Below, piece by piece: positions 7,960 through 63,755 of a stretch of 64,000 nucleotides of DNA. The DNA is taken from the NCBI GenBank assembly GCA_947034885.2, contig OX344755.2, positions 24,993,052 through 25,057,051 of the forward strand, given 5' to 3'. A program made the position numbers and the translations under genes. Position 1 is the stretch's first letter. Each line of letters opens with the position of its first letter. The notes under the pieces are model-generated. The model had not been told where the DNA came from. It saw nothing but the letters and a program-made list of their open reading frames with translations, and made no database searches. The stretch is from Thuidium tamariscinum (lineage: Eukaryota; Streptophyta; Bryopsida; Hypnales; Thuidiaceae).

Positions 7960-10085
7960 ACAATCGTGGGATGTTAAATCGGTCCCTCTAAACCGCAACC
8001 TAAGGACCTTGCACTTAGTGTCAAGCACGGGCCAAACATTGACCCAGCCTATCTCAATCACGCGACGTCGTCTCAGTGGCACATGACACCGGCTCTGCAA
8101 GACAAAGGACGTGCAAGACACCGACCTTATAATTTTGTAAACTATAAACTAATTTACTTATCCCACATTGTTTATTTTCCCTTCTACCGCCTATGTGTAC
8201 ATGGGTTGTTGCAAGAAACACCTACCAAAAAGCGTAGCGTTTTGCAACGTAGTCTTTTTTTTTTTGGGAGTACTTTAAAATTAGAAAAACAAGTTTTAAA
8301 AAAAGTGAAAAATATGTTTCATGTATAAACCTTTAAGAAGAATATACCCTAGAAAGGAAAAGCATAGGAAAAATCTCTAAGTAGGAAATCCAGAAAAGTG
8401 CAAAATCTCATGAAAATGAGTACTTCGACATTTTAATTTGTAAAAAATAGGAAAATAAATTTTAAGAAAAACTAAAAATTGTCCATTTGAGTAAAGTTGA
8501 TTTTGATGAGATTTGACCAAAAGTTCGATCTTAGAACCATTACCATTGTTCAAAAATTGCGTGCCAAAAAAAAAATTTGTACTCATGTGGAGGACAGAAA
8601 AAAACATATTTTTAAATTTTTTTTTAAAAATTTGTATGTTTTACACCTATGTAAATAGACCATGAAAGTTTCGTCATCAAATCATTAAATTTAAACACTG
8701 CAAACGTAATGATAATCATAAACGTAATTTTGTGACACTCAACGAAAATGTTTTTTAAATATAAAATATATTTTTTTAATTTTTAAAAAATAAGGGATCT
8801 AATAAACTTCAAGTTAGGTATGTTCAATAAAAATTTCATTTTCATTGGACTTAATCTCCAAAAGTTATTGTAGACAACAAAAAAGTGGTTCAAATTGTGA
8901 CATGAAATAGGACAGGTGTTTCTTGCAATGACCCACATATAAAGTTCTCTTCCCAGTGCAGAATACAAATTGCTAAATTGAAAATACAAATAAGGAAAGG
9001 AAAATTCCAAATTAGAAAAAACAAATCACAATTAAGTTTTTATAATTATCGTAAGTTCTAATACAACAATGAAAAATCTCATTAAAATGACAACTTTCCG
9101 TATGCAAATTTTTGGATTGTACAATGTAAATTAAAAATTGACATGTAAAATAAGTATAAATTTTCAAACATCAAAGACCCTTATAGATCTCAAGAAGTCA
9201 CAACTAAGTTTTCATAATTATTTTAAGTTCTAATATAATAATGAAAGATCTCATGAAAATGACAACATTCCATTACTTTGACACGTCTTATACTTCACCC
9301 TATGCAATCTGAATCTTGAATCTGTCATAGATTTTTGAAATTTATATATTTTGTAGATGCTTGAAATCTATATATGTCGAAGATGTTTTAGGCAACATAG
9401 TTAGAAATCTTTATATGTCAAAGATTTCTTTGACACTTCTTATACTGCATCCTATGCAATTTGAAATCTAAATCTTTAATAGATTTTTGAAATCTAAACA
9501 TTTTATAGATGTTTCAAATCTATACCTATCTAAGATATTTAAGACAACATAGTGTGAAATTTATATATGTCATAGATTTTATGAGACCTATAAAAATCTT
9601 AAATGTTTAAAAATCTATACTTATCTTAGATGTCAATTTAGCATTCAGATTGCACAATCCACAAATTTGCATACATAATGTTTTCATTTGAAGGAGATTT
9701 GTCATTCTTATATTAGAGCTTACAGTAATTATAAAAATTTGGTTGTGATTTATTTTTTCAATCTTGTAATTTGCATTTTCTGTTTTTTGATTTATATTTT
9801 GTGCTTTGTGATTTGTGTTCACCACTGAGAAGACAACTCTATATATACACAGAGGCGGTAAAAAATAAGACAAACAATGTGGGATAAGTAAATTAGTTTA
9901 TGGTTTAAGAAAATTACAAGGTCGATGTCGTGCACGTCCTTTGTCTTGCGGAGGTAGTGTCCGATGCCATTGCGATGACGTCGCGCGATTGCGATAGGTT
10001 GGGTCGACGTTGGGCCCGCGCTAGACACTACGTGCAAGGTCCTCGGGGTGTAGCTTCGTAGGACCAACTAAACATCTTGCGGTCA
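7960..10085. mobile_element. Foldback-type element B, long inverted arms, interrupted by a MITE
   Basis: The left arm (about 7967-8202, continuing after the inserted MITE at 8935) is the inverted copy of the right arm (about 9690-10080). Shared blocks include GACAAAGGACGTGCA and CCCACATTGTTT on the left and their complements on the right, and the outer ends resemble each other around ATGTT(A/T)A(A/G)T(C/T)GGTCC. Removing 8203-8934 makes the arms continuous: the left side resumes at 8935 with AAAGTTCTCTTCCCAGTG, matching the inverted complement near 9830. The interior carries repeated 'atagatttttgaaatc'-type units. No intact ORF is present. The superfamily is undetermined; the long inverted arms fit a foldback or MULE-like element. 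Confidence 0.65.
8203..8934. mobile_element. MITE family 'GGGTGATTGC', copy 1 (732 bp)
   Basis: The element begins GGGTTGTTGCAAGAAACACC and ends GGTGTTTCTTGCAATGACCC, which are inverted relative to each other. It is flanked by the 4-bp direct repeat ACAT (8199-8202 and 8935-8938). The interior is AT-rich and non-coding and shares blocks such as CTCTAAGTAGGA with copies 2-4. It sits inside the left arm of foldback element B, so it inserted after B. Confidence 0.85.
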
Positions 10086-10310
10086 CAATCACAATCAAGA
10101 AAGAACAAACCACTTTACTAAACAAGTGCTCAGAATTCGAGAATGTGCTTCTCTAAACATCAAAACCAAGTTGATTCCGAAAAGAATCCAATGCTAGGAA
10201 GTCGCAGTAAATTTAAGTATTACCTTTATTAGAATCAAAACACAATACATGTGTTTTGTAATGAAAAGTACACAAGAAGAACATATCCTACAATGCGGAA
10301 CAATCGAACA

Positions 10311-12458
10311 TCAAGTTTTGCCACCAGAAGTACGCGATACTTTTCTAGATTTGGGCTCCAAAAAACTACGGTACCTCTTCAAGGAGTTATCCCTAGGTAC
10401 TTCAAGAAAGACACATCTTTCTTCCGGCTGTTCTGTTTTGGGAAGACCACATGCAAGTAATGACGACTGGTTTTCCCTAGCCTTCTTGAGGTCTGCTATA
10501 AGGAAGTCTAGAAGGTGAGGATTAGCTTCAACATTTTACACAAGCTAGGTGTAGAGCTTTGAAGCGGTGACTTTTGAATCTTCATGTGTTCTGCAACCAA
10601 TACTTTCTATCATGCAAGGCTGCTTATCCTCTAGCAGCAGAACCATAGTGAAAGAAGTAGGAACAACAGTTATTCCTAGAAGATCCATAACTTGTTTTGA
10701 TCCGTTATACCCTTCCTCTGCAAAGCATTGGGAAAGTGGAGTGTTATTCTTCACACTACACTTAGAAGTTCCAACCTCCCTGACAAGTAGACCGTCTGAA
10801 ATTTTAAGATGCAGTGTCCGAAAAACCTTTACTGTATGTTTGCATATCATACCTTCTTTTTCAACGGGACAATCACAATGTGCCCATTCCAAATCAGGAC
10901 TATGAATTGTCCATACCATGGGATAGTGATTCATAGAAACCACAAGAGCGATGTTCTCGCCATCTGGGTATATCCAAACGGACGAATCTGGAATGTCATT
11001 AGCACGTACAATTGCAGTAGCAATAATTTGTTCTTGGCTCCTGTTCCGACTGAAGCCAAATAGTTTGCACTGTATTGCATACCAGTAGTGTGTGATGACA
11101 TCTTCCACTAGATAGGAAACTAACCAATCAAGTCTCCGTTCTTCAAAGCATTCACGTGATGACTTCAGAATAGACTTCAGATTTCCATGGTAAGACTCAA
11201 TCGTGGCGTTCGTATTTTGTCCTGCATGCGGAATACTTCGATTGGCCATGCACCACATATTAGCCTTCTCGCGCCAATGTTTTGTCATGTACTTCATGAA
11301 GCGAGGTGCCTTTGTTAATTCTATGCAGAGCCGGTCCAACTGCATTTGGGCCCACATGACAAGATCGTACTCCATCAAGTACCTTTTTGCGTACATGATG
11401 TCTCCTAGTTCTTTCAGAACATCTGCCCGCTCCCCCACAATTATAATTTTTTTCATGGCATTCTCTCGCCAAGAGACAAAGAACATATCTGGGATGTAGG
11501 CCACACTGTCCTGCGCCATATAAGTAGTACAAATGCTTAGCTCAGAACATTTGTCTCCTCTTTCATTATTTCAATGTCATTTTCCATACACCAGTAGAGG
11601 CAAAAACAAAGGAATGGCTAAAGTTGAATGTTATTCTAGTTTTGGATAAGAGGAAAGTATAAATTTTGAAAGATTAAGATAGTAGCTCATGATTTAAAGG
11701 TAGAAGCAGTGGAAGTTTGCCTCAAGACATTAATTTCCACTTGGGCATTGTCCACTATGATCGATACGGGAGCCCATATCAGAAGTTTCTCTTGGACACA
11801 CTTCTAGAACTCTTGTAGTACAAATCTCAAGTCCTTCTCCCGAGATTGCGAGGTGAGAAAAAAGGCAACCGGTATTCTGTTTCGCCATTCATTGAAAACC
11901 ATCACGGTATATAAAGGGTACTGCACATGCTCGAATACATGATAAGTATGAAAGACAAAAACTACTCCGAATCACTAATAAAATAGAATTCAATTGTGGA
12001 TTTTTCTGCAAATTATTGACGTGAAATGGCAAGATCCATCAAAATTGCAGAACATGCTATTTAAAATTGAAGAACGAATGCTGTCATAAGTAAGAACCAC
12101 ACGTACTCTTTTGTCTGATGTTCCGAATGTAGCATCAAATGACAAAGCATTGTTGTTACTAAATTTCACTAATATTTCGAGTTGCCATGGCGTTTGAATC
12201 TCAAGTGTGAATGGTGTACCATCCTACTTTTTTCTGTTCAAATCAAGTAGAGTATGTTCTCTGTAGCAGAACACGGACTCCGGATTCTCATCCACCCACA
12301 TTTTAACACTTTTTTGGGTTGCTTGCATACCTATGCCACAGAGATTCATCTCTCAGCTTCGCTAGATTTCGAACGTCCTGTGCTTGCACAAAGGTGTCCC
12401 AGCTAACAGATCCGTTTTGCAACGCTAGATCCTTCACGAATGACTTGTGTTGAGACAT
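10311..12458 (-). pseudogene. Mutator-like (MULE) transposase with SWIM zinc finger, degraded
   Basis: MULE transposases are DDE enzymes that cut and paste Mutator-type transposons. Reading the minus strand from an ATG at 12456-12458: an N-terminal part with SWDTFVQAQDVRNLAKLRDE, a frameshift, then WVDENPESVFCYREH. FDATFGTSDK (12110-12139) carries the first catalytic Asp. Next come YPLYTVMVFNEW...PVAFFLTSQSRE, an in-frame TAG at 11804-11806, and IIVDNAQVE (about 11734-11760, second Asp region). The uninterrupted block 11519-10545 includes the ESYHGNLK segment and the SWIM finger CDCPVEKEGMICKH (10836-10877, CxCx8CxH). After stops at 10543-10545 and just beyond, the same frame carries on as a basic tail (LKRYRSFLEPKSRK) to a TGA at 10311. 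Several stops and frameshifts make it non-functional as it stands. Confidence 0.85.
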
Positions 12459-13360
12459 GATTTGTGAGGGTGAAAGACCAAACTAGAGTAGATTAGTCAA
12501 GTGTTGTTTCATCCCACTAGATAGAGTTGAGCCCAAGCTGTCCTTGAACCCTGAAACATGAACACCACACTTAAAATTGCCCTATTTGTCCGTATGTTGC
12601 GGATGTTGATAAAGAAGTTGGCAAAGTATAGGATCCATGTAGGTCTATTTTGCCAAAAAACTGCACTTGCATCCTCGCTTGATTGATCTCCCACTCTACT
12701 TCTTTCCAATGCGGCTTTTTTTTGGGCTGTCTAATGAGAGGTATAGACAAGGTTGTATTCCAGAATTTTTTTCCTCCCTTGTCTTGCAGATCCTGCTTGT
12801 TTTGTGTCTTGTCTTCTCTTCTTTATTGTAGACTCCAGAAGTGTATTGATATCCATTAGAACAATGTAAGAATTGTCTTGTGATCCAAAACAACAATAGT
12901 ACCTATAATCCATTTACAATTCAAGAAGCTTTAGTTTCATGTTTGTCGATTGTATTCTTCAATGGTGTTTATAGTTGGTATCTAGACAGAATGCAGGACA
13001 CTTCTCTATAATTTATTAGACGTCTATTAGAACAAGGATTTCAAATGTTTCTTCATCCGTTTCTTCAAGGACCTTACATTCTAGATTTAGCACTACGAGT
13101 TTTGATTGAGTAAAGGTATAATTTTAATGTTTATATTTTTACGAGAAGAAATTGTGTAGAACATTTTATGGGCATCAAAAATCTTGTAAGTCCTATGTGA
13201 GAAGTGATGAATGTATTTGTCTATTGTTCTTTGGTATTTATTTGAAGTCATTCTTATTGGCATATTTGGTTTGGTATATCTTGTAAGAGAAATTTGCAAT
13301 CTTCCGGTGTATTGTATTGGCTAATTTATTTCATGTACTGTGGATAGTTCAGAAATTCAC

Positions 13361-13805
13361 TTAGAACACTAGGACGCCAATAAGTTTGTCCTCCAAAGAG
13401 TGTATAGAAATGAAAGGTTTTGGCACTGACTGTAGGACTTGAGTGGATGAGGATGCACGTGGCCTACGCAGAGAGCTCATAGCGTTTTTTTGGTGGATCT
13501 TGCAGTTGAATGTTGCAGAAAAATTAGTGTTCTGTTCCTGTCCCTTCACGAAGTCCTCCAACCTTGACCATGGAATTACATCAATTTCGGAGTGAAATAT
13601 ACGACCCTTTGATGTGGTTGTATGGGGAGTTCAATTCAGATCATCGTAACGAATTAGCCCAGGATTTGGATTCTACACCATGTCCTGCAGTTCATGAAGA
13701 AGTATGTCCTCTCTATTCAGATCTAGAGGTGTTCTTGGATTCTCTTCTTCGTCCTCAAAATCACTCATGAAGTCTTCCTCTGATTTTTCCATGATTAAGG
13801 CTGTG
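13361..13805 (-). pseudogene. Probable N-terminal remnant of the MULE protein
   Basis: On the minus strand an ATG near 13790 opens an acidic stretch (MEKSEEDFMSDFEDEEEN) that stops near 13679. Further along, another frame (within 13580-13361) reads IPWSRLEDFVKGQE followed by a basic PRASSSTQ region. An acidic leader and a W..L.DF..GE motif upstream of the DDE core are what I would expect in the N-terminal part of such a transposon protein. The 0.9 kb between this and the core (12459-13360) shows no convincing coding. The link to the transposase is inference from position and strand. Confidence 0.4.
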
Positions 13806-14205
13806 TACAAGACACTGAGATCAAGAAACAGTTAGTTGCTCCATAGACGAGTTGACTAATATTACGAGGATTTACTAGATGTGGTGCACACATTGAGTGA
13901 AGTGTTTGTGTGTATTGAACATAGTCTTGAAGTGTTTAAAACGTGGAATAGCTATAAAGCATACTAGTACTCTACTGTAGGGACTTATGCTCTCTGTTCA
14001 AGAAGGTCTAAGAATGTAGAGGATTGACTAGGATTTTAGGAAGAAGGTTTAAGAATGTACAGGTTTCATGATTTTGAACAATCCCTAAACTAGTACTTGG
14101 TGCGTATAAACGATTCAAGTATCGTAAATTCAACTATTGAATATCTTTGAGACCTAATAGAAGACACTATGATTAAAAGAGATACAAGATTCAACGACTT
14201 TGCAG

Positions 14206-15478
14206 CAACGATGCTAGATTATGAGCGGAGAATAATGAGCGTTGAACAATGAGCAATGAGCAATGAAACTTGAATGCTCATTGCAAGAATATTTTCTAAA
14301 AATAGACATGTTAGAGAAATAAATAGTATTATCATATCCAAAAATAATAATGTCAAAAATTTAAAAATTTAAAAATTTAAAAAAAATCTACAAAAAAATT
14401 ATATAAAATAGTTGATATTATAATGAAAGGTTGCATGAATGAACACCCATTCATTCATGTGTCAATGAACTTCATCCATGTCATTCATCCATCATCCATC
14501 ATTCATCATTCAATTTCCAAATTGTTAAAATTTTTGCAACTCATTATAAGCTTTTTTGAAACCAAAGAGGTTTTGAACCATCTGTGCTCTTTAATATCGT
14601 TTCCCTAAAAGCTTCTTTGGAATTTAAAAAAGGCTTCTCAATTCAGAGAGCCCTTCTTTGGAGCCAAAGTGCTCTCCTAGTATAGGCTTTTTTAGAACCT
14701 AAAGAATAATCCTCGGATTCAAGGAGCTTTTCCTTAGTGCCAAAAGACTTTTTTTAACAAGGCTTTTTGAATTTATAAAAGGCTCTTTGAATGCAAGGAG
14801 CATTTTTTGGTGACAAAAAGGTCTTTCATTGAAACCACTTTGGAACTAAAATAAGGGTACTTCAAATCACTGAGCCCTTCATTTATGCCAAAAAGCTCAT
14901 TTAGAGCATCCTTGAATCGAAGAGGCCTTAAAATCATCGTTGTTTTTTAATATTGTCTCTCTTCAAGCCTCCTCGGAATTCCTAAGAGCTTCCTCGGAAC
15001 CCAAGGAAGGCTTCTCGGATCCAAGGAGCTTTTTTTGATACCCAAAACTTCTTACAATGAAGGCTCCTCGGAATCCACAAAAGGCTCCTCGGATCCAAGG
15101 AGCCTTTTTTGGTGCCCAAAATTTCTTGCAATGAAGGCTCTTTTAAACCTAAGAAAGAGTCTTCAGATCCAAGGAGCCTTTTGTTGATGCCAAAAAGTTC
15201 TTTCAATGAAGGCTCTGTACAGCCCAAAGAATAATCTACATCCATAATTCTTAATTTTTTCATCTACATTTTTCATCTACATTCATCTGGTATTATTTTC
15301 ATCCATCTAAAGTAATGAATGAAATAAGTCATTTACATCTAAAGATTTATTTTTTATAAAATTAATTTTTAAAGGTTCATTTTAAAAAAAAATTCTTAAA
15401 ATTCTTAATGCTCAAATCTTCCCGCTCAATGCTCAATGCTCAATGCTCAACACTCATTGCTCATACTTTAGCAACCCT
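14206..15478. mobile_element. Hairpin-rich MULE-type MITE, copy 1 (1.27 kb)
   Basis: It is flanked by the 10-bp direct repeat GACTTTGCAG (14196-14205 and 15479-15488). The ends are inverted: CAACGATGCTAGATTATGAG on the left, and AGGGTTGCTAAAGTATGAGC as the complement of the right end. Just inside each end is a short array with a ~7-bp period (GAGCAAT on the left, its complement GCTCAAT on the right). The middle (about 14540-15230) is a degenerate ~80-bp repeat built around AAGGCTCCTCGGATCCAAGG / CCAAGGAGCC, which can form successive hairpins. The ORF at 14982-15263 (minus) is a by-product of this repeat. Copy 2 lies at 27.7 kb in the same orientation. Confidence 0.85.
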
Positions 15479-15852
15479 GACTTTGCAGTGAGGAACACTT
15501 TTGTGCAAATTGCAGAACAAACCTTAAACTTTAACATGTGTTCCAATACAATGCTCTGAATTGAAGTGTTACGGTGACGCACCTTGAAATTTAGAAAACC
15601 TGTCTTGTGATTGACTAGCCAGAGAAAGAAATGTAAAGGGGGAAATGATAGAGTCGCGCAAAATAGTTCCTAAATCCTCGTTTTTGATGGTCTGCGATGG
15701 ATTTCAGCGTAAATGGACTTCAGAATTGGAAAGGAATTGCGCTCATTCAATTGAATATAACGTGCATAGACAATCCAGTCATGCTTAGTAACGCGCAGAA
15801 CAGCCTTAAATCCTAAAATGACAGATTCTCACGATTCATCCTACTCAATTAT

Positions 15853-16575
15853 GGGTGATTGCAAGAAACACCTGTCCTATTTGTTGCGTTTGGCTGATTT
15901 TTTCGGGAGTACTTTAAAATTAGAAAATTAATTTTTAAAAAATTTGAAAAATATAAATAATGTATATACCTCTAAGATGAAGGTTTTGACCGAAGGAAAT
16001 GGATAGAAAAATTCTCTAAGTAGGAGAACTTGAAAAGTGCCAAACCTCCAGAAAATACATACCTTCATGTTTTAATTAGGGAAAAATAGTAAAAATAGAT
16101 ATTTTCAAAAAATAAAAAGTGGCCATTTGTGACAACTTTATAGAGATGGTCATTCACCAAAAAAACCACCAAAATAATATTTTATATGTTTTAAAATACA
16201 AGCAGAAGGGAGCTCACTTTGTAGACCTCCACACCTCACAAAATTAACTTTTTTCAAAAATCCTTCCCTAGAAAGCTAGAAGTCTATTAGAAGACCATCT
16301 CATCCAAATTTCATGTCAAAATCATTAAAAAAAGGTATAGCTCAGGTATAGAAAACCCCTAAACTGCCAAGTGTGACATCCAATCGGGGTCTATTTATGG
16401 ATAGTAAAATATTTTTGAAAATTATGAAAAAATTATGGAAGGTTTATGATAGTTATGAGCACCTTCCATCCAAATTTTGAGTCAATCAGAGCTAAAACAC
16501 AAAAGTTATGGCCAAAAAACAAATCAAAATGCAACGTGTGACACAAAATAGGACAGGTGTTTCTTGCAATCACCC
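15853..16575. mobile_element. MITE family 'GGGTGATTGC', copy 2 (723 bp)
   Basis: It starts GGGTGATTGCAAGAAACACC and ends with the exact complement GGTGTTTCTTGCAATCACCC; the inverted match continues inward as TGTCCTATTT. It is flanked by TTAT on both sides (15849-15852, 16576-16579). This copy has the best-preserved ends and is the natural reference. It has no coding potential. Interior blocks (TCTAAGTAGGAGAACTTGAA, AAGTGCCAAACC) are nearly identical to copy 4. Confidence 0.9.
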
Positions 16576-16579
16576 TTAT

Positions 16580-17370
16580 GGCTATTGCAAACATCTGATC
16601 TTAGACTTTAGTGTCCGTGATTGAGAAGCATATTTGATAATAGAATATTGAAATCAAGTCCTGAATCACGCAGAGTAGATCAAATTGCCTAAATATACTA
16701 AGGTATAATTTGAAAATGAAGTACTATAGATAGAGACATGAATTTACTACATTCAAATGTTGTGATTGACTAGCATGCAAGTTTGATACAAAATGAAGAT
16801 AAATCCTGAATTGCAAAAAACACCTGAAATTGATAGAAGACTTTCTCTAAAGAATCGTAGATACAAATATTGCAACCCTAAACTCTAAAATAACTCTGCC
16901 AAATGAAGAATTCTTTGTCATTGCTACTGTAGAGCTAGCAATGGAGAAGAACCTTAAACCCTAAGAGAACAATACAAAGCGGAGCACTAGAGGCAATATG
17001 AGAGAAGAACATAGAAGGCAGAAGTAATCTGGATTCAAGACTAAATTGTGCTTAGCTTGAATTAGAAGCTCATTAAGAGCAGAATAGATTCCGAACCCTA
17101 GACCGCCATCGTAAACCTTACCGCATTGAAGTATCTTTATGTGTTCTACACACTTTGCATACGTTTACCAAGGTATATTTTGAATTGTTGCTAGCCCTTC
17201 TCGTAACGGTCAAGATCCAACAGTCGCAAAACATTCTAAGACCTAAAATCGCCGCCAGGGATTGCAAGAACCATTTATTGAACTTAGATGTAGTATCCCT
17301 TTCACCCTTTGTTATCGTAATAGGTTTAGAATGCATAAGACCCTTTTGTTTTTGCAGTATAGTCTTACTT
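16580..17370. other. Non-coding spacer
   Basis: No gene or paired repeat is recognised. Composition is ordinary for the window. Confidence 0.5.
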
Positions 17371-17389
17371 ATTGTTTTGCGCAGGATGT

Positions 17390-17670
17390 CAATTTGGCCG
17401 TGGTGGCTAGCTCGCGGTGGCGGCGGGAGCGAGCAACGGTGCGGCGCGTCCGTCGACCCTCATCTCCGTCGGGTCAATGGACTCCGTTGGGGTCGGGCAA
17501 GAGAGGTCGGGTCAGGCTTGACCACATGGGGGTTGAGCCAAGCATGCGGGTCACCGTTGGGCCCGTGCCTAGCACCAAGGCCTCAGTCCTCGGGGTGCGG
17601 TTTCATGGGACCAAATTAACGTCCTGCCCACCTTTGATGGTAGGATTAAACGTCCTGCAGTTAGTTTGAT
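17390..17670 (+). repeat. GC-rich element end related to foldback B
   Basis: The segment containing GTTGGGCCCGTGCCTAGCAC and TCCTCGGGGTGCGGTTTCAT, ending GGGACCAAATTAACGTCCTG, matches the right arm of foldback B (GTTGGGCCCGCGCTAGACAC ... CTCGGGGTGTAGCTTCGTAG ... GGACCAACTAAACATC near 10000-10075) and the complement of its left arm. It is probably a lone end of the same or a larger related transposon. The ORFs across it (17155-17619, 17262-17669) reflect the GC-rich repeat and are not called genes. Confidence 0.5.
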
Positions 17671-17699
17671 CATACAATTGTTCTATTGGCTGAAACCTC

Positions 17700-18960
17700 A
17701 CATGCTCAGCCCCCCCTCACCCTCTTCTATTTGTTAAAAAAAACCAAAAAAAACCCTCACAATCACTTGAGGTGATGCCCTTGTTAATAACCTTGAGCAT
17801 GCTCAAGAAACAGAATTGAAAATGGTTCATGCTCTGGCAATTTATTTTGACAGCTCGTACTGTCATGATATTTAGTCAGCTCTCCTGATCCATTCCTAAC
17901 CAAAGCTAATCCATCCTTCTCCCGGAAAGAAGCTCGGTGCATTTGATTGAATCGCGAAAGAAATAAACGAATTTTTGTTGGATACTATTCAAGTCACCAC
18001 ATCTAAATCAATACATCCAAATCAACAAAAAATTAACAAACCAAATCAATACTTTTTTTTGGTCTACTTTGTTGATTTGGTCACAAACTTCTAGTAGTGT
18101 TTTTTCTTGTTGATTTGTCTTTGTTTCTTCACATGCAAAATATCTCTCATTCTTAATTCTTCTTCTCCTAGTTCAATGAATGGAGTCTCTTTATCTTGTA
18201 GATTTACCCTTTATAGTTCCTTCATTTTTCCCAATGATGATTATAGGAAGTGAAACATATCTATTTCTTGTGTTTTTTGTAGTCCCATATTTGCTTAAAG
18301 TTGTGATTCATTTTCTAATTCTTTTGCCCATTCCATAGAAAATTCATCATTTTGTAAAATGCACAAATTGTAAAAACACAAAGACAGTTAAATAACAATG
18401 TCAAACATATGTTGTTAGTGGCATGTTAATTCTTCTCAATAAAATGTGCCATCTTCCTTTAAATACTCCAATTGCTCTTTCCAAATCCACATGAATGCTT
18501 GGTTGAATAAAATTTCATATCCTTTTCTTCTTAGCAATTATTCTTTTTTCCCTTGAATGGTGAATAAAACCAAGTTTCCATAGAAAAAGAAGCATTAGAA
18601 ACAAATCTTTAAGGTAAAAGTACACCTTTCCTTAGTCTTGGGAGTTTAGGAAGTTTAAAGGGAGTTGTTTTTTTATGATCTTCCTTAAAGATGGTGCAAA
18701 TTTTTTTGGACTTTTTTAATCAACTATGTGTTTCATGAATTCTAGTATTTCTATATTTGCACAAAAAAGTTGAAACTAAAATTGCATTGTACAATTGTAA
18801 AAATATGTATTAAATATGCCCAATTCAACAAATATTTCAAATGCAAAGGCATTGAGATATAATAATGGTCCACATTGCAACCTATACTCTCTCTACAATG
18901 GCTAATGCAATCTCATACTCTCAATTCCAAAAAATAACTCAAATATTGTGGGAACCAACA
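17700..18960. other. AT-rich non-coding stretch
   Basis: Nothing is recognised in this stretch. Confidence 0.5.
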
Positions 18961-18969
18961 ACTTCATTA

Positions 18970-19254
18970 GGAGGGATTTGAGGCCTGGAAAGGGCCGTTT
19001 CGGGACTGTTCCCGAAACAGGGTCTAGGAACGGCTGGCTGTTGGTCAGCATTTTCAAAATAAATAAATAAATAAATAAATTGGGGGGTCCCGAAATATGA
19101 AAAAAAGTCCAAAAAAAAAATTCGGAAAAAAAAAGTCGATGATGTGGCAGTCGCTCGACCACGTCGGATTCCTGCGGGAACTACGTTCTCGCGGCTGATT
19201 TCGGGATTTCAGGCTGTGGGAACTGATAGGCTCCCAGAGCCCTCAAATCCCTCC
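18970..19254. mobile_element. Short MITE flanked by TA (285 bp)
   Basis: The inverted ends GGAGGGATTTGAGG and CCTCAAATCCCTCC (continuing outward as CATTA / TAATG) are flanked by TA at 18968-18969 and 19255-19256. This fits a Tc1/mariner-type target site, although TA could equally be part of the inverted repeat. The interior holds a GC-rich inverted segment (TTTCGGGACTGTTCCCGAAA) and an (AAAT)n microsatellite at about 19059-19080. It has no coding capacity; the minus-strand ORF at 18902-19162 is incidental. Confidence 0.75.
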
Positions 19255-20316
19255 TAATGTTGCATGTTTGTCAAGTTGTTGATTTTTTAAATTCTATAAA
19301 TGTGAATTTCCTTCAACTTTTATATACAACAATTTGAAATGATGTATACCAAGATGCAAAGGTAAGAAAAAAATTGAGTTTAAAAAAAATGTGATAGAAT
19401 ATAAAATAATTCCAAATCAAGGTGATGACAATTGAGTTTTAGACATGAATAACTTTGAAACTAATTTTCAAATAAATCACAATTGATTTTTTTTGTCAAA
19501 CTTACATGATAATGTGGAATATGTTGTACACGACAACTTTTGTGGAAACACTTTTGGACTTAATCCACTCATGCTCATGGTATGGTTGTTTGAATGAAAA
19601 CATTTTTATTTTGTACTTATTTTTGACAGTCATTGTATATGGAGTGGGGTTGGGAGCCTACTATGGATCTCCTACCCACTATACCTAGTTTAATGCAAAT
19701 CTAAATTGTTCTCATATTTTAGTCTATGAAATGTTTAACCTATATAGATTTTCATTAAATTGTGTTTGGGGTCTATATTGGGCTCCCTAGCTACTTGAAG
19801 TCTTGAACTAAATGTCACCAAACATTTAGATTTATTAGCCTTGAGGCACTTTGATGTCCAATTTTTCGACAATGTAGAGATTGAAGATTAGATTTCTATC
19901 TCATTTCAACTTAGATGAAAGTCATCCTAACTTTCACAAATACTTTATGAAGTTGTTGTCCAATCCAATAGTTGAATTTGGTGATACTAGAGTACATATT
20001 TTTCTAAAATTACAAATGTGGAAGTTTGTCAAGTGGATGACCTTGCCAAAATTGCATTGACTCTAGTTCAAATCTAGAATTGCAAAAATGAGGTCATAGA
20101 ATCAAAGAACACAAAAATTCCAAAAAGTCAGCATATCAAGAGAACCTTATTTCAAATCCATTTCAACAAAATTTACTCAAAAAATGACAATATATTGCTT
20201 TAGTTGAATTTTAAAGAAATTTTGAATTTTCCCACTCAAAATTTATAGAAAATATTGGTGATAGCATTGGTGAGTCTAATTGTATGGATAGAATATGGAA
20301 TTCAAACTTTACAACT

Positions 20317-20930
20317 TTTATAGGAGAGGGCTCATAAACTACTCAGGCTTTTGCACTTGTCTACTAGGAGGCTCTAAAATGGATAGTTGATTGTGAGAAA
20401 ATGAATCGTGGATTACATTGAAGCACTCTAAAATTTGTTTTTTACTAATTGAATGGATGGTTTCAGAGTCCCAGTGGGTTCATTCTTAACTAAGTGGATA
20501 GGTGTCTACTGATTATATTCAAAACAAAAATTGGTTGTTGAACCACCTTCTTTCAAGTGTTAAAAAATCTGAAATAATGATTTATTCAAGCATTCATTTC
20601 AATTTTAGAAAGGGACCCATTTAGAAACCATCTCTATTACTTTTTACATATTACAGTGTTAGTTTTTGAACCAGCCAATTTTTTTTCCAAACTGCACATG
20701 TATGGGTTTGCAAGGCGTATTGATCACAAATAGGGCCTATGCAAAGTTGTATTTGAAAATTCATAACTAATTCAATAATGCTTCAAAAATATAAAATGAC
20801 TTGTATTAAATTCCTCATCTATTTTTCTTTGATTGAAAAATGCAATAAAAATATTTCCATCTTAGGAAATACATGGAAAAGGTAGACCAACTCTTAAATG
20901 AGCAATTTATGAGCCTCTTACCTTACTTGC
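20317..20930 (+). repeat. Diverged 0.6-kb direct duplication, copy 1
   Basis: From TAGGAGAGGGCTCATAAACT onward, this segment aligns with 21326-21895 over its whole length. Shared blocks include GAAATAATGATT(T/A)ATTCAAG, TATTGATCACAAATAG and GAAAATTCATAACTAATTC. No terminal repeats or coding sequence are visible. Confidence 0.7.
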
Positions 20931-23736: not shown

Positions 23737-23749
23737 ATTTGAAGTGTAT

Positions 23750-27405: not shown

Positions 27406-27410
27406 AGAAA

Positions 27411-31523: not shown

Positions 31524-40993
<9,470 letters not shown>

Positions 40994-47060: not shown

Positions 47061-47066
47061 CTTAAT

Positions 47067-47795
47067 GTGATTGCAAGAAATACCGGTCCTATTTCTTGTC
47101 ACAATTGAAATTTCATTGTTTTTCCTACTATAACTTTTGAATAAAAATATTTGAGAATATGAAATAATTATTGGACCTCTCTGACTTGATGGTTTTTACA
47201 TCCCTTATTTTTCAAAAATAAAAAAAATCATTTGATATTTAAAATTAATTTTTGTTAATTTGTCACAACTGAGGTTTAGGGGTTTTTACTACATTAGGAG
47301 TACCCAAATTTAATGATCTAAAGTTGAAATTTTCATAGTGCATTTGCATAGTAGGAAAGCATATTCTTACTGAAGGGAATCTAAAAATACATTATTTTAT
47401 GTCCTCCACATGCGTAGAAATAGCACTCCAATTGCACACAATTCCTAACCATTGACAATGGTGCTAAGATTATTTTTTTGGTGAAATCTCATCACCATCA
47501 ACTCTTCCCAAATGGCCAATTTTTAGATTTGAGAAAAAGATCTTTTCCTATTTTTTACAAATTAAAATGTAAATATGCCTATTTTCATGAGATTTCCGAC
47601 TTTTCTAGTTCTCCTACTTAGAGAATTTTCCTAAGCTTTTCCTCCATAAGGTACCTTCTTCTTTAAGGTGTATACATTGTACATATTTTTTATATTTTTT
47701 AAAAATTGTTTTTCTAATTAAATAGTACTCATAAAGAAAAAGGGGGTTAACTGCAAAACACTACGGAAAATGGACGGTGTTTCTTGCAATGACCC
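47067..47795. mobile_element. MITE family 'GGGTGATTGC', copy 3 (729 bp, inverted interior)
   Basis: The left end GTGATTGCAAGAAATACCGG has lost the first two G; the right end is GGTGTTTCTTGCAATGACCC. It is flanked by TAAT (47063-47066, 47796-47799). The interior runs in the opposite orientation to copy 1: TCATGAGATTTCC and TCCTACTTAGAGAATTTTCC are complements of copy 1 blocks. Confidence 0.85.
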
Positions 47796-47799
47796 TAAT

Positions 47800-50287: not shown

Positions 50288-50289
50288 AT

Positions 50290-53200: not shown

Positions 53201-53300
53201 TAGGTAAAGACCAGATTTAAAAATTAATCTTTCTAATGGATTCAACTTTCTTCAAAGTATGATTTTGTAGTTGATTCTTTGGGGCCCACACATCTTGTTA
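50290..53300. other. AT-rich non-coding stretch
   Basis: No gene is recognised. It includes a (CTAT)n/(GTAT)n microsatellite at 52563-52606. Confidence 0.5.
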
Positions 53301-53303
53301 GAA

Positions 53304-54045
53304 TTTTAATCCCTAAACCTCTAAGGTGCGTTTTTTGGCATTATAAATTTTTTGGGCAGCTTACTACAAATGGAGTTTTTATTTTTTCTTTGAAATTTTT
53401 ACACACGATGTGCCCAAGGAGTAGCTTTAAGGCCCAAGAATTTTTGTAACTTTTGACTTTGTGGTTAAAAAATTATGGCATGATATGTTGTTTTCTTTAC
53501 TCAGAAGGCAGCTCAGGTAGGTGAAAAAACTTCTTTTCCAAAAGTGAATTTCAAATTGATTTTTTAGGTTTTTACAGACATGTGAAGCTTTGTTTCATTC
53601 CATTTGGATTAAGGAGTCAAAAGTTATGAGCAATTTTAGTTTGCGGGTAGGTATGGTTTTCAAAAATTCTTGAAAACCATACCTACCCGCAAACTAAAAT
53701 TGTTCATAACTTTTGGCTCCTTAATCCAAATGGAATGAAACAAAGCTTCACATGTCTGTAAAAACCTAAAGAATCAATTTGGAATTTCACTTTTGAAAAA
53801 AAAAAATTTTAAGATGTTCTTTCAGCTGCCCAGGCTGCCCTCCAAGTAAAGAAAATGACATATCATGCCATAACTTTTTATTCACAAAGTCAAAAGTTAC
53901 AAAAATTCTTGGGCCTTAAATCTACTCCTTGGGCACATCTTGTATAAAAATTTCAAGGAAAAATATAAAAACTCCATCCGTAGTGAGCTGCCCAAAAAAC
54001 TTATAATGCCAAAAAACGCACCTCAGGGCTTTAGGAGTTAAAGCA
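53304..54045. mobile_element. Large near-perfect palindrome (~740 bp foldback element)
   Basis: The left arm 53304-53663 and right arm 53670-54045 are inverted copies around a 6-nt loop. The inner ~95 bp pair (from GTTTTTACAGACATGTGAAG to GTATGGTTTTCAA) differ at about two positions; outer parts are more diverged with indels. The ends are inverted around CTAAGGTGCGTTTTTTGGCA / TGCCAAAAAACGCACCTCAG. It has no ORF. Transcription would give a long hairpin RNA. Confidence 0.85.
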
Positions 54046-54049
54046 TGTT

Positions 54050-56310
54050 TTGTATTTGATATGTTTTATGAGCCTATGGTTAATGTTTTTCTTTATTTTT
54101 TCTTCAAGAATTCCTGATAATTTCAAATTGTAACCAAAAAATTTGAAGCTCTATTTGATGTATAGGAGACATGTGATTTTGTATTCTAAAAATAAAATAC
54201 AATAACTTTCATTCATATCTAATGGAAAATTAGGGCATACCAAAGAATGGATATATGGGGAATAATTACATAATTAAAGGCACCATCTATTTTCTTCTAA
54301 AAATCACATTTGATTCAAATCATTACCAATAATTTGAGAATTTCATGACTTTTAAAAGATGTTAGATTTAATCTTCAAGAAATGATACTTATGTCCTACA
54401 AGATTTTTATGTTTACTAATTGTGTAGTCAAAGATTTTGTTCTTAAATAGTTTTGAAAAAGAACCCAAAAGGGATTTTATAGGATCATTCTAATTCTTTT
54501 ATTTTACTATTTTGAAGATCTCAAATTTTAGAAGGAATCTCCATTTGATATAGAATATTTTTTACTATTTCTCAAAATTAAAACAAGATTGAATTGGATT
54601 CTAAATTTTTATAAACTACAAGGATTATCTTCTTGGTGCAAATTTTAGCCTATTGACTTCTTTTTAAAAATTTTAAAATTCCATTTAAAAATAATTCTAG
54701 GTCATTTAGCCAAATTGCTACTAAGTATGTAGCAAATGAAGAAACAATAGACAAATATGTATTAAATATAACAAGTTGCTATATATTTATGAAAAAAAAT
54801 TTTAAATTTTAATCATGGGTTGATCTATACAATGGCAAAGCATTTAATTACTATACTATAATAAATTTAAACAAGAATGGTGTGACCATGAGGCTTTGTC
54901 CTAAGTAAACAATAATATTAAATTATTTATAGGAATTAAAAAATAGAAAGAAAATATTTTAAAAAATTTAAGCAAAATTAAATAGTGAGAAAATTAATAA
55001 ATATTATTTCATTTTATTTTGGAAGGATTGAAGCTATTTGCATTAGTTGAATATGTATTGTTTCTAAAAATTTAGTTCAAAAAATTACAAAACTTATAAT
55101 TGTAAGATTTCATGGTACTTTGCAAAAATTGTTTTGAATATTTGTAGTGAAATCATGATTTTTTTGCAATATAATTCATTATCTATTTTTTGATAAGAAA
55201 AGTACAATATTTTTTTACATTTTGAAGGTGACTACAAAATAAAGTTGAAAAATTAATATCTTTATTACTAGTTTATCTTCAAAGGTTCTTTTAGGATGGT
55301 ATTCTTTAGCAAAAACAATAGACAAACAAATTCCTCTAGGTGGAACTTACCAATGATATTTTATATAATTCTAAGAAACTATGCTTCAATATTTCTACAA
55401 AAATATCTTTTTTTTTCTTTAAAATTAATTGTCTTGGTTTGCAATATTGTCTTTAAAATTTAATCTTCTATACAATAGAGTGTTCAACAAATCTTAGTGC
55501 TAATATGATCACATTAAAGCATACATTTTCAAACACAAAAGATGATTTATGTACTAAATGGTGCTTTAGTAAAATCTATATTGTATCACCATTCTCAAGT
55601 AAATAAAGGTCTTATTGTGTTTTATCAATATTTGCTAAAATATTTGTAATATTGCCATACAATTTACATTGACTATAATTATGTAACTTATAAATTTGTG
55701 CAAAAATTTTCTATAGTAGACAAAGTAGGACTTATTGTGTCTAATCAATATTTGATAGAATATTTATAACACTACCATGCATTATAAATTGACCATAATC
55801 CTAAAACTTGAAAATTCATGCAAAGCTTGCTATGGTAAACAAGGAAGGACTAATTGTGTTTATTAGTATTTGATGAAATATTTATAGCACTACAATACAT
55901 TTTAATTTTACAATAATCATATATATGTTAAAATTGAACGTTTATATATATTGGTGTATACAAAATTTGATGAAATTTTATTTTTAATTACATTTAATAT
56001 TTAAATATTGATTGCAAACATTCAATATTTCACTTACAAATAAAATGAAATCACATTGTAATAAATTGGTTGTTGTATAAATATTAATATACTATATAGT
56101 TTCAAAAATAATAATCTTTGATATATATAGCACATGTAGATTGGTACATCATTATTTCTTCATTAAAAACAATAAAATGTTTTTAAAATTTTTTATAGTA
56201 ATTTACAATAATTTTTTTGACATCTTTATTTACTAAATGAGATAATAACAAATAATATATTTTCTTTTAGTTTTTAATTGTACATATTAAAATGTTTCAA
56301 AATTTGAAGG
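54050..56310. other. Very AT-rich non-coding stretch
   Basis: No gene is recognised. Near 55600-55900, three imperfect ~115-bp units share TTATTGTGT(T/C)TA(A/T)CAATATTTG(A/C)T and AATATTT(A/G)TAA motifs, forming a weak tandem repeat. Confidence 0.5.
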
Positions 56311-56336
56311 ACTTTGATTGTCTTATTTACACTTAG

Positions 56337-59300
56337 GTTGGCGTCAACGGGAAAGTTGAGGGAGGCAAATCTAGAGGAGAATTATCATACAATGAAGGCA
56401 GTGATGCCAGTGTTGCCTTTAGGGCAACAAGAAAACAATCGCAATAATTTCAATACAGCAAAAGCAATAGCTGATGCGGCGGCCACATTAGAAACAACAA
56501 GCTCGCGAACCTCAACCCATCCATCTTCTAGGAGGCAATCGGAAAGCTCACAGATCTCATACTCGTCAAAGTTGGGTTTGCTCGATTACTCTCAACCTTG
56601 CTAACACCTCAATTACTGGTCCAATCTTAGTGCTTGGAACTATGAAAATAGAAATTAATGTCAACCAAATTCTCACGGGAAGTTTATTTTTGTCAATGTT
56701 GTTGTATTTAGGTATGTTGAAATAAACTAGGTTTTTTGTCTTGTTGAAAAATCTTTGAAGAGAATTAGTTATTAGTTCTCAATATGCTTGAGCTCCCATT
56801 TGATGTATGGAGTCTATTGCATTGAGTGAAGTGTAGAGGAGATGGGATCAAATTCTTATTTTAGTAGGACTTGGACCATTAATGCAAACATGATGAATAT
56901 ATAGTAGGTGTGTTGAGTGTAAACATTCAGACATGCTTGCTCAACTTGCCTATTTAATTATTTTTCCTCTTGTAGGGGCAGTGGTCGATTCGGCCAGCGA
57001 TCTCGTGCAAAAAAGAAAAGGGGCAAAGATGATCTTATTCAGGTCTCACATCCAATCATACCCAATCCCACAAAAGATGAAGATGAAATGTAATATTCAA
57101 GAAAGTTGTTGTTGTCTTCAAGTAGTAAGTGCATACAAGATTGTATTGTCCATTGGTGTTCATCCTTTTGAATATGCTAGAATTAGAAACAGCCTAAACA
57201 CCAACGACATCTAAGAATTTTTAGCAATTATTATCAACATGTAGCCTCTTCTATTTAATTATTCTTTTTGCCACACTAACAGATCCAAATTTGTTGGACT
57301 TGCGTAGAAGAGTAGATGTGAATAAGTCAAAAATATCAACTTCTAGCTAGCTAGATACATACTTAGGTTAACTTTTTGACAATGAATGGAATTCAGGTTT
57401 TTGATGAGAATGGGAAAGATGTGACACCAAAGCCCCTATCAATATTGAAGCCTACTGTGCTAATTGATAGGCTTTTGAGCATAAGTGTGCAATCTATTGA
57501 AGGCACAGAGTCTGAACACTCCGTTCCAATCTATAGGTGAGTTTATGTGACCTATGGTACTTTTACTATAGGAATTAGTTTCTAAGCTCTCAAACTCTTA
57601 ACCCTTTAAGGAACAAGAATTCGAAATTGGGATTCATTTCTTTTTAGCAGTTGAGCAGGCCATATGGAAACTTCTTTTTTTTAAAAATATTTTTAATCTT
57701 TTGACTAGCACATGCAATGCTCTTCACAAATTCAAATTTGGTGAAATGAAATATTTTCCATCTGAATTATATTCTTCATGATATAATCAATCAAACTGGT
57801 CATTCTAAATCATCATCCCTTGGTCTTTCAGGGATTTAGGGATAATGTTTCATTTGCATGAGGAGTTAGAACTCGGGTCTATAGTGACAAATTCAAAATG
57901 TGTATGTTAAATTGTTAAGTCTATATTTAACATTAGCTTCTAGTGCTCTACTTGCACAATGAAACAACATTCTCATTGAATTTATGTGTTTTCAATTTTT
58001 TCCTTGATGATCATTCTAGTCTACAAGGTTTGATCATTGTTGGTGGCTTTTCAATCTCTTTTAAAATTCACAACAAACAAGTAGTATGTAAGGATACTAG
58101 CAATGGCACTTTTATGATCACTATTGTCATTTATTTGGACTGTAGTATTTTGACAAGCATTGTATATTTGAAGGAGAATGCAATATGAGAACCAATCATT
58201 TTATTGTTTTGATGTTCAATTTGTATTTAGGATATTTATCATTTTTTTAAATCACAATTATCTCTTATTCGATCAGTCGAACAAGTTTCTCAGTAACAAG
58301 CACTGCTGGGAGCCTTACTCCTGAAACTATGGATTTGGGCATTGACCTTGAAGAGTCAGATGTTCAAGAATCTAGAAGATCTAAAAGCTATCGAGGCTCT
58401 GCAATATTTGAAACTCCTCGGCATCCGAAACGAAAATATGACATTGTCTCAGCTCCAAGTGTTCAACCAAAAGTTCCAAAGGTTCTATACCTATGGAAAG
58501 ATTACATGTAACCTCTTTTGTTCAATTTTAAGGTCAAAGTATTCTAGAATGTACCCCAAAATAGATGAGCATGCATCTAAGGAAATGTTTTGCAACCCTG
58601 CAACAAGATTTCAACATTGACTTTGTAACAAAATCATTGAGTTGTTATAGGTAGGTTAGGCCTAAATGTTGTTAGCCTTGATGTTTATACTTAAATCAAG
58701 TTTTACATACCAAAGTAATGAAAAAATGCAATCAAGATCTAATTAAGCGGTTTGGTTTATCTATTCTAAAAACATGGTTATAGTGTTGACTTAGTTTTGT
58801 AATCATCATGTTGTGGGTTGCGTATTCATTTAACTTTTGTCATTGCCAAATATTCATATCTAACAACTTACTTGACTTTCTTGCTTGACATTATTTACAA
58901 TACAGGAACTAGAGAAGCCTATTCCAATCACCATAACAGAGAGTGAAAATTGTATTATGTTGAGTATCCGTGGGCATAACCTTAATCCAAATTTTGAAAC
59001 CTTCAACCAAATTTTGGACCAAAATGAACGTTATGAGAAGTTGCTACAGGTCAGTTTAGTATGCTAAAAATCTATTGACTTGGTAATTAAATTAACAACT
59101 GCTTGAATTTGATAATGACATATAGATGAAAAGATTGAAAATTGATGTTTGATCTATTTTATTAGAGATAGGAAAATGTACCTCCTAGGCAAGAATTTCT
59201 TTAGACAAGTGTTAGAATCTTGTGCAAAGTGAATAGTACGTACCTTTCTTGACCTAAGCTTAGTATTAAAGATAACTTATTAACATCTAGAATAAATGCT

Positions 59301-62300
59301 TTATGATATAATTCAGATGAAGCTAGGAAGTGATAATTTTCAACCAAATATGACCCAGACCTTATTCAATCTACAAAAAAACAAAGAAGCCCAGGCCTCA
59401 GCTTTGTCTACTCAATCTAATTCAGTTCAGGTCTATCCCTTACCTAACCTCAACTTTTGATACCAATTTCAGTTGATAGTGGCTTATATATTTGTGTGAA
59501 AGCTCTTAGTTGAGCTTATTTGGTAGAGTTTTGAATAATTTTGAAAAACAAAACTTTATAGGTAGAACGTCATAATTTACAATGGGCTTAATTACTAAGA
59601 TTTACTACAATTGTAGGTGAACTCTTGGGATATTGTTGATTCAGTTGCTGGAAAAGTAAGACCAGATGAATATCAGCCTTGGAAAGTTGTACCACATGGA
59701 TCCAAGGATAACAAGACTACAAATCCAACAACTACTATAGTGATATTGCCCGAGCTATTTTCAAACACCGACGCAACACCAACAACAAGCCCTCCGGTAT
59801 GCCTATCAAGTGAATGATGTTTGTGCATTCTATAATGGCCATGATTTGTCTATTTCTAAAAGCAAGCAATTTCTCAAGTTAATAACGGGTGTCATATTTG
59901 GATGATGGAGGGAGGGTTGAAAGCCCACTTTTTCCCTCCTTTTGTGGATCAAAAAACTCATCTTGAGAATAGATTTCAAAATCCAACATCTACTATTATA
60001 TCCTACAATAAAAAAAATTTATAGAATATACCCACCTCTTCCCATGAACATATGCCACATCAACATAGACTTTGACATGTCTTCAAATTCTAGAAGCACC
60101 ACATATCTTAGTGATCTTTTTAGAAATTTGCTCACTTACTACATAACAATGACAATAGACATAGACAGTGAGACAATTTGCAACTTTATGACTAGCTGAC
60201 ATGACTTGGCTGGAAATTTAAAAAACAATAGTAATTTGTATTTGACTAAAATCACTACCATACAATAGCCTTTGTGAAGAGAGTAGTTGAACAAAGTGAA
60301 ACATTGTTGTAGGAGTCGAGACGACAATCAATGGCCTCTAGGCGAGGATCAACTCTTGGTGGCCACTCTTGGAGGCCGTCAGTTAGTGGAGGCCAACAAT
60401 CTAGAAGAACAAGTGTAGCATCAAGGCGTGCTTCAACAATTGGGGAAGTGTCACAAGGGCAAAGACTAGATGACATTTTAAGATTAATGAGTCCTGTATC
60501 TGTGGGAACTGGAGTGGATAGCATGGATGATAGCCAAAGTGGTGAGCCACTACAGCCAAAAGTTGACATCAGCAAGATCCTTGGACTCGACAAGGCTTTA
60601 GAACACATTGAAAGAGCTTGTGTACTCAATTCATATCACGATAAGGTGAATCGTGAGATTGGATTGCTAATGATCATAGTTGCTTCTTATGGGCACAATA
60701 GCCTAATATGTGTAGTCCTATCTATTTCCATTGCATATCCATATTAGTAGATGTTGGAAAAATAATTAAGTTAACCTGCAACCAATTTTTCGGTCTTGCA
60801 CATTCATTTGCTATGCAGCTTTTGGATTATATGGACTTCAGGGCAAGGGAAATTGAACCTTCCCCCATTGAACCTCCTCTTGAACTTGACAAATATGGAA
60901 AACCTGTTGTGAAGAGGAAACCTAAAGTGATAGAACCACAAGCACCAATAGATCTATCAGCTGCATTGGCAAAGTTTGAGGAAAAAGAAGTGGTTTCAAA
61001 AGTTATTTTGCCATCATTATTTGATTCAACAGTGACAGTGCATCCAATTTGGGACTTTCAATGTGATGTCACAAAAGGTAGAAACATTAGTTGTGTGGCA
61101 TGGAATAAGGTAAGTGATATACAATTACCAATTAATGCACTAAGATTATGCAATATTTTGTTCATTTCTTGATCATCTGAGACTGATAGTTAATCTTTAA
61201 AAAACTCTTTTTGTATATGTGAGAGGCTTTAGATGAACAAGCATTTGATTGCTGTGGGATACGGTGAGTTTGAGTTTGGCAAACAAAAGGATGGAATGAT
61301 TGCATTTTGGTCATTGAAAAATCCACGGTACCCACATGCTGTGATCCCTACGCAATCAGGAGTCACCTCTGTGGATTTTGCCACTACCAATCCAAGCCTA
61401 CTTGCTGGTACATTCTACCTTATCTAGGTGGACTTTAATAATCATTCTCTACTTGATATTACTGGAGCGCATTTACAATGTCAAATAGAAGTTTGTCCTT
61501 TCAATATGTAATGTATCTTTCCATTTTTCCTCTACTTGGTGTTGAAAGCATTACAACTACCAAACAAGATCTATAGTATTTCCATAGTTGTGAAACATTA
61601 GTGAAGTGCAATCAAAATTTTTTGCGACTCTATTGGCTCAGGTTTTATGCTCTTGTATCCTTTTAGCTTAGCTCATAAATGATTAGGTAGCTAGTAACAT
61701 TTATTGGAATGATGCAGTTGGGTTCTATTCCGGAAATGTAGCCATATACGACATGCGAAATCCAAAGGACCTTGAGCCAATGGTGAAGAGCTCCTTTGCA
61801 ACTGGCAAACATTCTGACCCTGTATGGAAAGTGCAATGGGTTGACCATGCTGTTGAGCATGGAGAGTCTCTTGTTTCCATCTCTACCGATGGCCGTGTAT
61901 CTCAATGGTCTATAAAAAAGGTGAGATTTTGATGAATTAATTTCTAGGTCTTAGCTTGTTGGAGATGTATATGAGCATAAGCATTCATTTGAGATGTACA
62001 AGACAATTAGGTAAATTTTGAATTTTATAATAACACAACACAATGGTAGTTTGCACACAAATGGTCATAGTCATTGCGCAAACATAATATTTTACAATTG
62101 CTAACATGGTGATTTTGTAAAAACAATCTAACGGTGTTAATTGGCCAAAAATCTTTTGTGTCAAGAAATTCTAGTCGAGGATTTAATGCTAAAAATTGCA
62201 TGGAAAACATAGCACTAGGGTAGAACTTTAGATTATAGGATAATGTCTTGCTCACTACAAATGTTAATAACTTGTCATTACTTGCATTGGCCCTAGTATA

Positions 62301-63755
62301 ATTTTATTTTTCAAATTTTTCAAATTTTTGAATGGCCCAATGTGCAAATGCAAGGATTTGGAATATTTGAATCTGATGAAGTTGAAGAAGGTTCCAAGCC
62401 AAAACAAAGGCGCACAACCACAACCTTTCATATCTCGACGTTCTGCAGGGTTGTGTTTTGAGTTTTCAAAAAAAGATATTGGGTATGGAGGTTCACTACT
62501 TCACTATCGGATGATTGCATGAACCACTTGTGCTATTTGTTGCATTTTGCAACAGTATTCTTGACTTTTTCTAGAATACTATGAAATTAGAAAACTAATT
62601 TTTAAATTTTTAAAAAAATGCGACTTATGTATACACCTTTAAGACAAGGCAACCCCTGGAAGGATTCTATAGAAAAATTCTCTAAGTAGGAGAACTTGAA
62701 AAGTGCCAAACCTTAAGAAAATACATACCTTCATGTTTTAATTAGGAAAAAATAGTAAAAATAAGTAAATACAAAAAATAAAAAGTGACCATTTGCAAAA
62801 ACTTTATAGTGATGGTCATTCACCAAAAAGACCACCAAAATAATATTTTATATGTTTCAAAATTCAAGCAAAAAGAAGCTCACTTTGTAGACTTCCACAC
62901 CACATAAAATTAATTACTTTCAAAAATCCTTCCTTGTAAAGGTAGAAGTCTACTATAATACCATATCATCTAAATTTCATCTTTAAATCATTAAAAAAAA
63001 AGGTACTCCTTAGAATTAAAAACCTCCAAATTGTCATTTGTGACATTCAATCACTAGTAGTATTTTAATATTAAACTATTTTTGAAAATTATGAAAAAAT
63101 TACATAAAGTGTATGATAGTCATGAGTACCTTCTTTAGAAATATTGAGTCATTTGGAGCAAAAATGAAAAAGTTATGGTCAAAAAATTGAACAACATGAG
63201 ACATGTGACGGAAAATAGTACAAGTGTTTTATGCAATCACCCTATCCTTCTTTTGCCTATGGAGAGATTTATTTGGAACTTGGAAAACAGTCTTTTATGA
63301 AGATGAGTGTGGAACTTGATTGTTACATTTCATATTAGGTTGTTGTATTCTAGTATGATGTGGAGTTGTTACTTGTCAATTGGGATAGGCAGGATTTACC
63401 TTGTAGGTTCAGAGGAAGGACCCATCTATAAGTGTGATCGCTCCTATAGTGAGCAATATGTAATGATCTACATAGGCCACAATGGCCCTGTATATGAGGT
63501 AAGGCACCTATTCTATATCTACAATCCTTGAAATATCTCTTTTGCTAAAAGGAATTATACAACTTTGTACTCTCTTTTAGATCACATTTTGGTACTACTT
63601 TACTCTTGGAATTGGTAGAACCAAGAATGAAGGTGTTTACTTTGAATTAAGGTAATTCTATGCATGGGGTGTAGGTTCGGTGGTCGCCGTACGTGCCATC
63701 CTTGTTTCTTAGTTGTAGCACTGATTGGACAGTACGACTTTGGAGTGAAGATCAA
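56337..63755 (+). CDS. DNAI4: Axonemal dynein intermediate chain DNAI4/WDR78 (IC138-type), 3' end outside window
   Basis: This is an intermediate chain of the inner-arm I1/f dynein, acting in motile flagella, here presumably of sperm. Exons: 56337-56570, 56976-57042, 57397-57536, 58277-58481, 58906-59049, 59317-59430, 59617-59796, 60313-60645, 60819-61109, 61233-61407, 61718-61920, 62355-62482, 63393-63498, 63675-63755; they join in frame for about 800 codons. Diagnostic stretches: VFDENGKDVTPKPL, LDKALEHIERA, WDFQCDVTKGRNISCVAWNK, LIAVGYGEFEFGKQKDG, GVTSVDFATTNPSLLA, LVSISTDGRVSQWSIKK, IYLVGSEEGPIYKC, FLSCSTDWTVRLW. These follow the family order of low-complexity N-terminus, conserved linker and WD repeats. 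The first two exons are least certain: the start codon is unresolved, and the donors at 56571 and 58482 are weak GTT sites. The exon ending at 63755 may extend. Confidence 0.9.
62509..63242. mobile_element. MITE family 'GGGTGATTGC', copy 4 (734 bp), inside a DNAI4 intron
   Basis: The left end GGATGATTGCATGAACCACT and the complement of the right end, GGGTGATTGCATAAAACACT, are inverted. It is flanked by TATC (62505-62508, 63243-63246). It lies wholly within the intron between exons ending 62482 and starting 63393, 26 bp after the donor, so splicing can remove it. The interior is closest to copy 2. Confidence 0.88.

Follow-up and report, generated by a model that had tools for sequence, protein, structure and literature searches.

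A large, partly young family of miniature inverted-repeat elements with 4-bp target duplications in the moss Thuidium tamariscinum

The window, meaning the whole 64-kb stretch of Thuidium tamariscinum DNA that was analyzed, holds four miniature inverted-repeat transposable elements (MITEs), here termed E1 to E4, alongside several coding features. On the forward strand, positions 2168-2722 encode an Ulp1-type protease domain (Peptidase_C48, E 4.2e-6), a domain that is often carried by plant transposons. Two reverse-strand frames at 10548-11570 and approximately 11690-12223 resemble, by eye, a MULE-type transposase with a SWIM zinc finger (CDCPVEKEGMICKH); these frames gave no Pfam match and are not flanked by ends of the MITE family. 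A fragment of a plant-type receptor kinase is present as well. Just upstream of E4, exons of an axonemal dynein intermediate chain occupy 60313-61929, with 60702-61169 matching DNAI4 (E 6.7e-6) and 61687-61929 matching IC138 (E 3e-21). Two frames downstream of these exons gave no dynein match that would place E4 within an intron. Together with the size of the genome, an axonemal dynein gene in a plant suggests an organism with motile sperm, in keeping with a moss. No Pfam transposase model was matched at E 0.01 by any of the window's 150 longest open frames.

An earlier note on this DNA had described four elements of 723-734 bp, lying in both orientations, each within a 4-bp repeat of its own and bounded by inverted ends. 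Each element was recovered to the base, three on the forward strand and one on the reverse, and GGGTNNTTGCAAGAAA ends are common to all, with the core exact in five of the eight. E1, identified from its sequence and an end scan, is a 732-bp forward-strand copy at 8203-8934 flanked by ACAT (8199-8202 and 8935-8938). E2, a forward-strand copy of 723 bp at 15853-16575, belongs to the youngest subfamily seen and lies between copies of TTAT (15849-15852 and 16576-16579). The reverse-strand copy, E3, spans 729 bp (47067-47795) and is bordered by TAAT (47063-47066 and 47796-47799); its left end is without the first two G's, which places TAAT directly against GTGATTGC. E4, a 734-bp older relative of E2 on the forward strand (62509-63242), is enclosed by TATC (62505-62508 and 63243-63246). 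The duplications are exact in all four copies, and because 4-mers at window positions 723-734 bp apart match at a frequency of only 0.0069 (200,000 random draws), four of four is not a chance result. The terminal inverted repeats of E2 (15853-15882 and 16546-16575) are perfect, with 30 of 30 bases matched, while those of the other three copies match less well.

The earlier description of these copies requires a correction, as they split into two subfamilies. E2 and E4 are 80% identical and E1 and E3 74%, with approximately 60% identity between the pairs. Measured against consensus sequences of the two types, E2 and E4 are 98.8% and 79% identical to the E2-type consensus, and E3 and E1 are 93% and 75% identical to the E3-type consensus. 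The best-conserved parts across the four copies are the terminal regions, the left ~310 bp, and the last ~75 bp. A 17-base end pattern allowing up to three mismatches has nine matches in the window, compared with 0.30 expected; eight are the element ends, and the ninth, at 16808, is outside any recognized copy. A profile built from the four elements found no fifth copy within the window.

Beyond the window, a family size of four copies proves far too low. In the 363,211,507-bp assembly of 19 contigs, exact GGGTNNTTGCAAGAAA core ends number 6,017 + 6,099 = 12,116, against 0 + 1 for a reversed-pattern control, and the 30-mer end of E2 is found without mismatch at 378 sites. (The end sequence of the family is also written GGGTNNTTGC.) Rough scaling from the five of eight window ends that are exact places the true number of elements at what may be near ten thousand. 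The genome search scored 40 of 6,231 candidates for E2 and 40 of 6,257 for E3. From these best-scoring sets, 28 E2-type copies diverge from their consensus by 0.7-2.6% and 30 E3-type copies by 0.8-7.0% (median 2.8%). Both subfamilies moved recently.

The same copies, whose selection by best score biases them toward young ones, were used to determine the length of the target-site duplication. It is exactly 4 bp in 27 of 28 E2-type copies, the remaining copy having 5 bp, and in 24 of 30 E3-type copies at script-chosen ends. At such ends, the six other E3-type copies gave match lengths of 3, 3, 2, 1, 0, and 0; the length-2 case is the window's own E3, in which TAAT is found by hand once the shortened end is allowed for. 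The earlier note had taken the elements for MITEs that duplicate 4 bp of their target and had made that length answerable to copies across the genome, and these counts uphold the length and support the proposal. The family is large, partly young, and recently active, with a firm 4-bp duplication. G+C makes up 34% of the 27 E2-type duplications (37 of 108 bases), compared with 35% of the window, and T occupies the second position in 15 of the 27. None of the 27 is TTAA, nor do they share a fixed motif, and the enzyme therefore appears to set the spacing of its cuts more than the sequence of its target.

The uniformity of the family is also evident in the spacing of its ends. On contig C1, the first 100 core ends in the list include 30 adjacent inward-facing pairs of up to 12 kb, and 22 of these are spaced 690-770 bp apart; the other eight measure 404, 804, 1,079, 1,081, 1,462, 1,730, 2,426, and 11,784 bp. 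Of 87 end pairs with an exact 4-bp duplication in the sequences read, 79 are 690-770 bp long; the set was selected by duplication and includes E2 and E3 of the window twice over. Within the common 30 bp, left ends are not like right ends: inner motifs at 214 end-like sites are GTCACA-like in 94 and GTWGC-like in 85, and the 35 sites with neither are partly other subfamilies and partly chance. While the subfamilies are only ~60% alike, length stays near 720-735 bp. Such constancy across strongly diverged subfamilies suggests either that these MITEs descended from MITEs or that their size is limited.

Other forms of the element are also present. One end pair of 1,805 bp (L039) is an E2-type MITE that houses a second element, a foldback relative of 1,079 bp. 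The foldback is flanked by ATAT, has arms that are 98% identical, and in parts is ~69% like the E3-type consensus. Nested insertions with duplications of their own, such as this one, show repeated transposition. Two patterns of unusual bases after the end were also followed. The first occurs at four places, and the one probed (L129) is a MITE. The second occurs at 15 places, of which eight are a short-deletion form and six are a GGTCC variant, mostly ending in CGCAA. This variant, which has 186 ends at three mismatches, is taken, on the spacing of its ends, as another MITE subfamily; two of its ends that fall within one stretch pair at 729 and 733 bp, distances derived by hand.

The elements have the attributes of MITEs: terminal inverted repeats, target duplications of constant length, many copies of uniform length, and no transposase match. 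The nine reading frames of E1 and E2 gave no Pfam match to a transposase; weak, sub-threshold matches of one E1 frame to PreP_C (E 0.005) and FRD2 (E 0.026) are taken as chance. Like the usual plant MITEs, they are short, non-coding, and abundant, with conserved ends and subfamilies of uniform length. At ~730 bp they are long for a MITE, yet inside the 50-800 bp range given in a passage of PMC12550479. Under the scheme set out there, a plant MITE is usually placed in one of five superfamilies according to the length of its duplication and the sequence of its ends (PMC12550479). A family like the present one, young and very abundant but with 4-bp duplications, would go unclassified or be filed wrongly. 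The family is ordinary in kind and unusual, for plants, in its duplication class. In the literature searched, mostly titles and abstracts, this MITE family is not described, and the string TTGCAAGAAACACC had no match in the main texts of the open-access papers searched.

Target duplications measure 2 bp (TA) for Tc1/mariner, 3 bp (TWA) for PIF/Harbinger, 8-11 bp for Mutator, 2-3 bp for CACTA, and 8 bp for hAT elements; to our knowledge, none of the five usual plant MITE superfamilies makes 4-bp duplications. The duplication found here fits none of the five, and on this count hAT, Mutator, Tc1/mariner, and CACTA are disfavored. In favor of a PIF/Harbinger-related transposase, the GGG-type ends of the family resemble PIF/Harbinger ends, and DDE_Tnp_4 genes are common in this genome, with 331 candidates and 150 scored, seven of the latter having equal scores and a 458-aa frame. 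However, the duplications are 4 bp and varied instead of TWA, and the one 458-aa Harbinger-type element that was read is without the family ends. Moreover, the scored DDE_Tnp_4 gene nearest to any of 81 listed E2 ends on contigs C1 and C2 is 8.0 kb away, and the end in question belongs to a MITE (L118). A mover of this type is largely refuted and very improbable. The Harbinger-type copy that was read (L089) has a second frame upstream of its transposase.

The family is very probably a set of MITEs without a transposase of their own, moved in trans by a DDE-type transposase that makes a 4-nt staggered cut. The ends and duplications, the copy number, the frames lacking a recognizable transposase domain, and the recent spread of two subfamilies are observations; movement in trans, DDE chemistry, and a cut-and-paste mode are inferred. 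The transposase would come from an element at another place in the genome and would bind the ~30-bp ends with their GGGTNNTTGCAAGAAA core, perhaps along with the inner motifs. It would then excise the MITE and insert it at a target opened by cuts staggered by 4 nt, and gap repair would generate the 4-bp duplication.

An element encoding such a transposase between family ends was not found among the ends with listed positions, which comprised the first 100 of the 378 E2 ends and the first 100 of the 12,116 core ends. Nineteen unpaired E2 ends that were read whole are all MITEs. Forty further places, consisting of 39 unpaired ends from the first 100 of the 378 E2 ends and one place with unusual bases, were probed 250-500 bp inward; 37 are MITEs and three have a foreign interior (L097, L114, and L120). 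L097, the one of these three that was traced further, lies together with L130 and L131 at ~41.35 Mb of contig C1 and is a GTTG/CAAC-rich repeat with nine genome matches at 73-100% identity. The 149 bp beside its end correspond to E2 positions 575-723 at 97%, stopping at ...CTACTAGTGG. Because CTACTAGTGG reversed is what we take to be a CACTA-type end, L097 is apparently a CACTA-type transposon inserted in an E2-type MITE. Outside this genome, a 22-base end pattern had no matches in genome_contigs or viral_contigs; ten viral_contigs matches to a 17-base pattern were rejected for lack of extended similarity.

Known transposases that produce a 4-bp stagger are candidates for the moving enzyme. 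The piggyBac transposase makes a 4-bp duplication, and piggyBac-type (DDE_Tnp_1_7) genes are plentiful in the host, with 659 candidates, 116 of them scored and many having long frames. Eleven scored genes have a 1,023-aa frame, and ten of these are equal in score; this set suggests a young family that has expanded strongly in a plant. One example, L016:1-1212 on contig C3, matches piggyBac-type transposases in the PDB. An E2 copy lies ~290 bp behind this gene, an arrangement that could link the two, but the copy is complete, and it is read as an insertion because an ATAG duplication of its own flanks it and the T-rich repeats around it run on past both ends. Furthermore, piggyBac targets TTAA, which is absent from all 27 duplications, and, of the 116 scored genes, none lies closer than 64.7 kb to the 81 listed E2 ends on C1 and C2. 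Movement by a piggyBac-type enzyme that is less strict about its target is thus improbable.

The earlier note had named Sola and Ginger as superfamilies with 4-bp target sites, and of these only Sola stands, as a possibility. Passages of PMC10741241 report GingerRoot and Ginger elements in plants, with duplications of 4-6 bp, and describe Ginger as having TG...CA ends and inverted repeats of 40-270 bp. Ginger is disfavored because the termini of the present family are GGG...CCC. Sola transposons, by the same passages, make 4-bp duplications, have inverted repeats that range from 11 to 1124 bp, and are present in the moss Physcomitrella (PMC10741241); here, the duplication is likewise 4 bp, at the genome-wide frequencies given above (27/28 and 24/30 copies), and both a short-repeat form and the 1,079-bp foldback form occur. 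In addition, a fern genome paper gives 2,739 Sola copies (PMC6890710). In contrast, Sola2 of amoebae has AT-rich AWWT duplications, according to a passage of PMC3627910, and those found here are not AT-rich in this way, their 34% G+C being close to the 35% of the window. The host survey, which covered DDE_Tnp_4 and DDE_Tnp_1_7 genes, brought no Sola protein to light. Sola is the leading, unproven candidate among known enzymes, and the family may tentatively be regarded as non-autonomous Sola elements, a reading that is plausible and short of probable.

The mover could instead belong to a transposase lineage that is undescribed, or that is new as a mobilizer of plant MITEs, which we consider a somewhat unlikely possibility. 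It would accommodate a target with little sequence preference, as well as ends and a 4-bp size that fit none of the plant superfamilies tested. However, with positions listed for the first 100 of the 378 E2 ends and the first 100 of the 12,116 core ends, the missing partner is weak evidence for it. Other organisms, too, have non-autonomous elements that make 4-bp duplications (PMC3627910). Such a lineage might cut with a nearly sequence-neutral 4-nt stagger, have thousands of copies in a moss, and be active still or until recently, its ~730-bp passengers having diverged into many subfamilies; we hold this version, too, to be somewhat unlikely. The family points to an unrecognized active transposase in a plant, and the ends and duplications reported here are enough to search for the enzyme.

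Elsewhere in the genome, an E2-type copy (L018:1501-2223, within the stretch 530-3206) is located between two frames that lie on the same strand and encode ankyrin and PGG domains; the copy may therefore disrupt a gene or lie in one of its introns.
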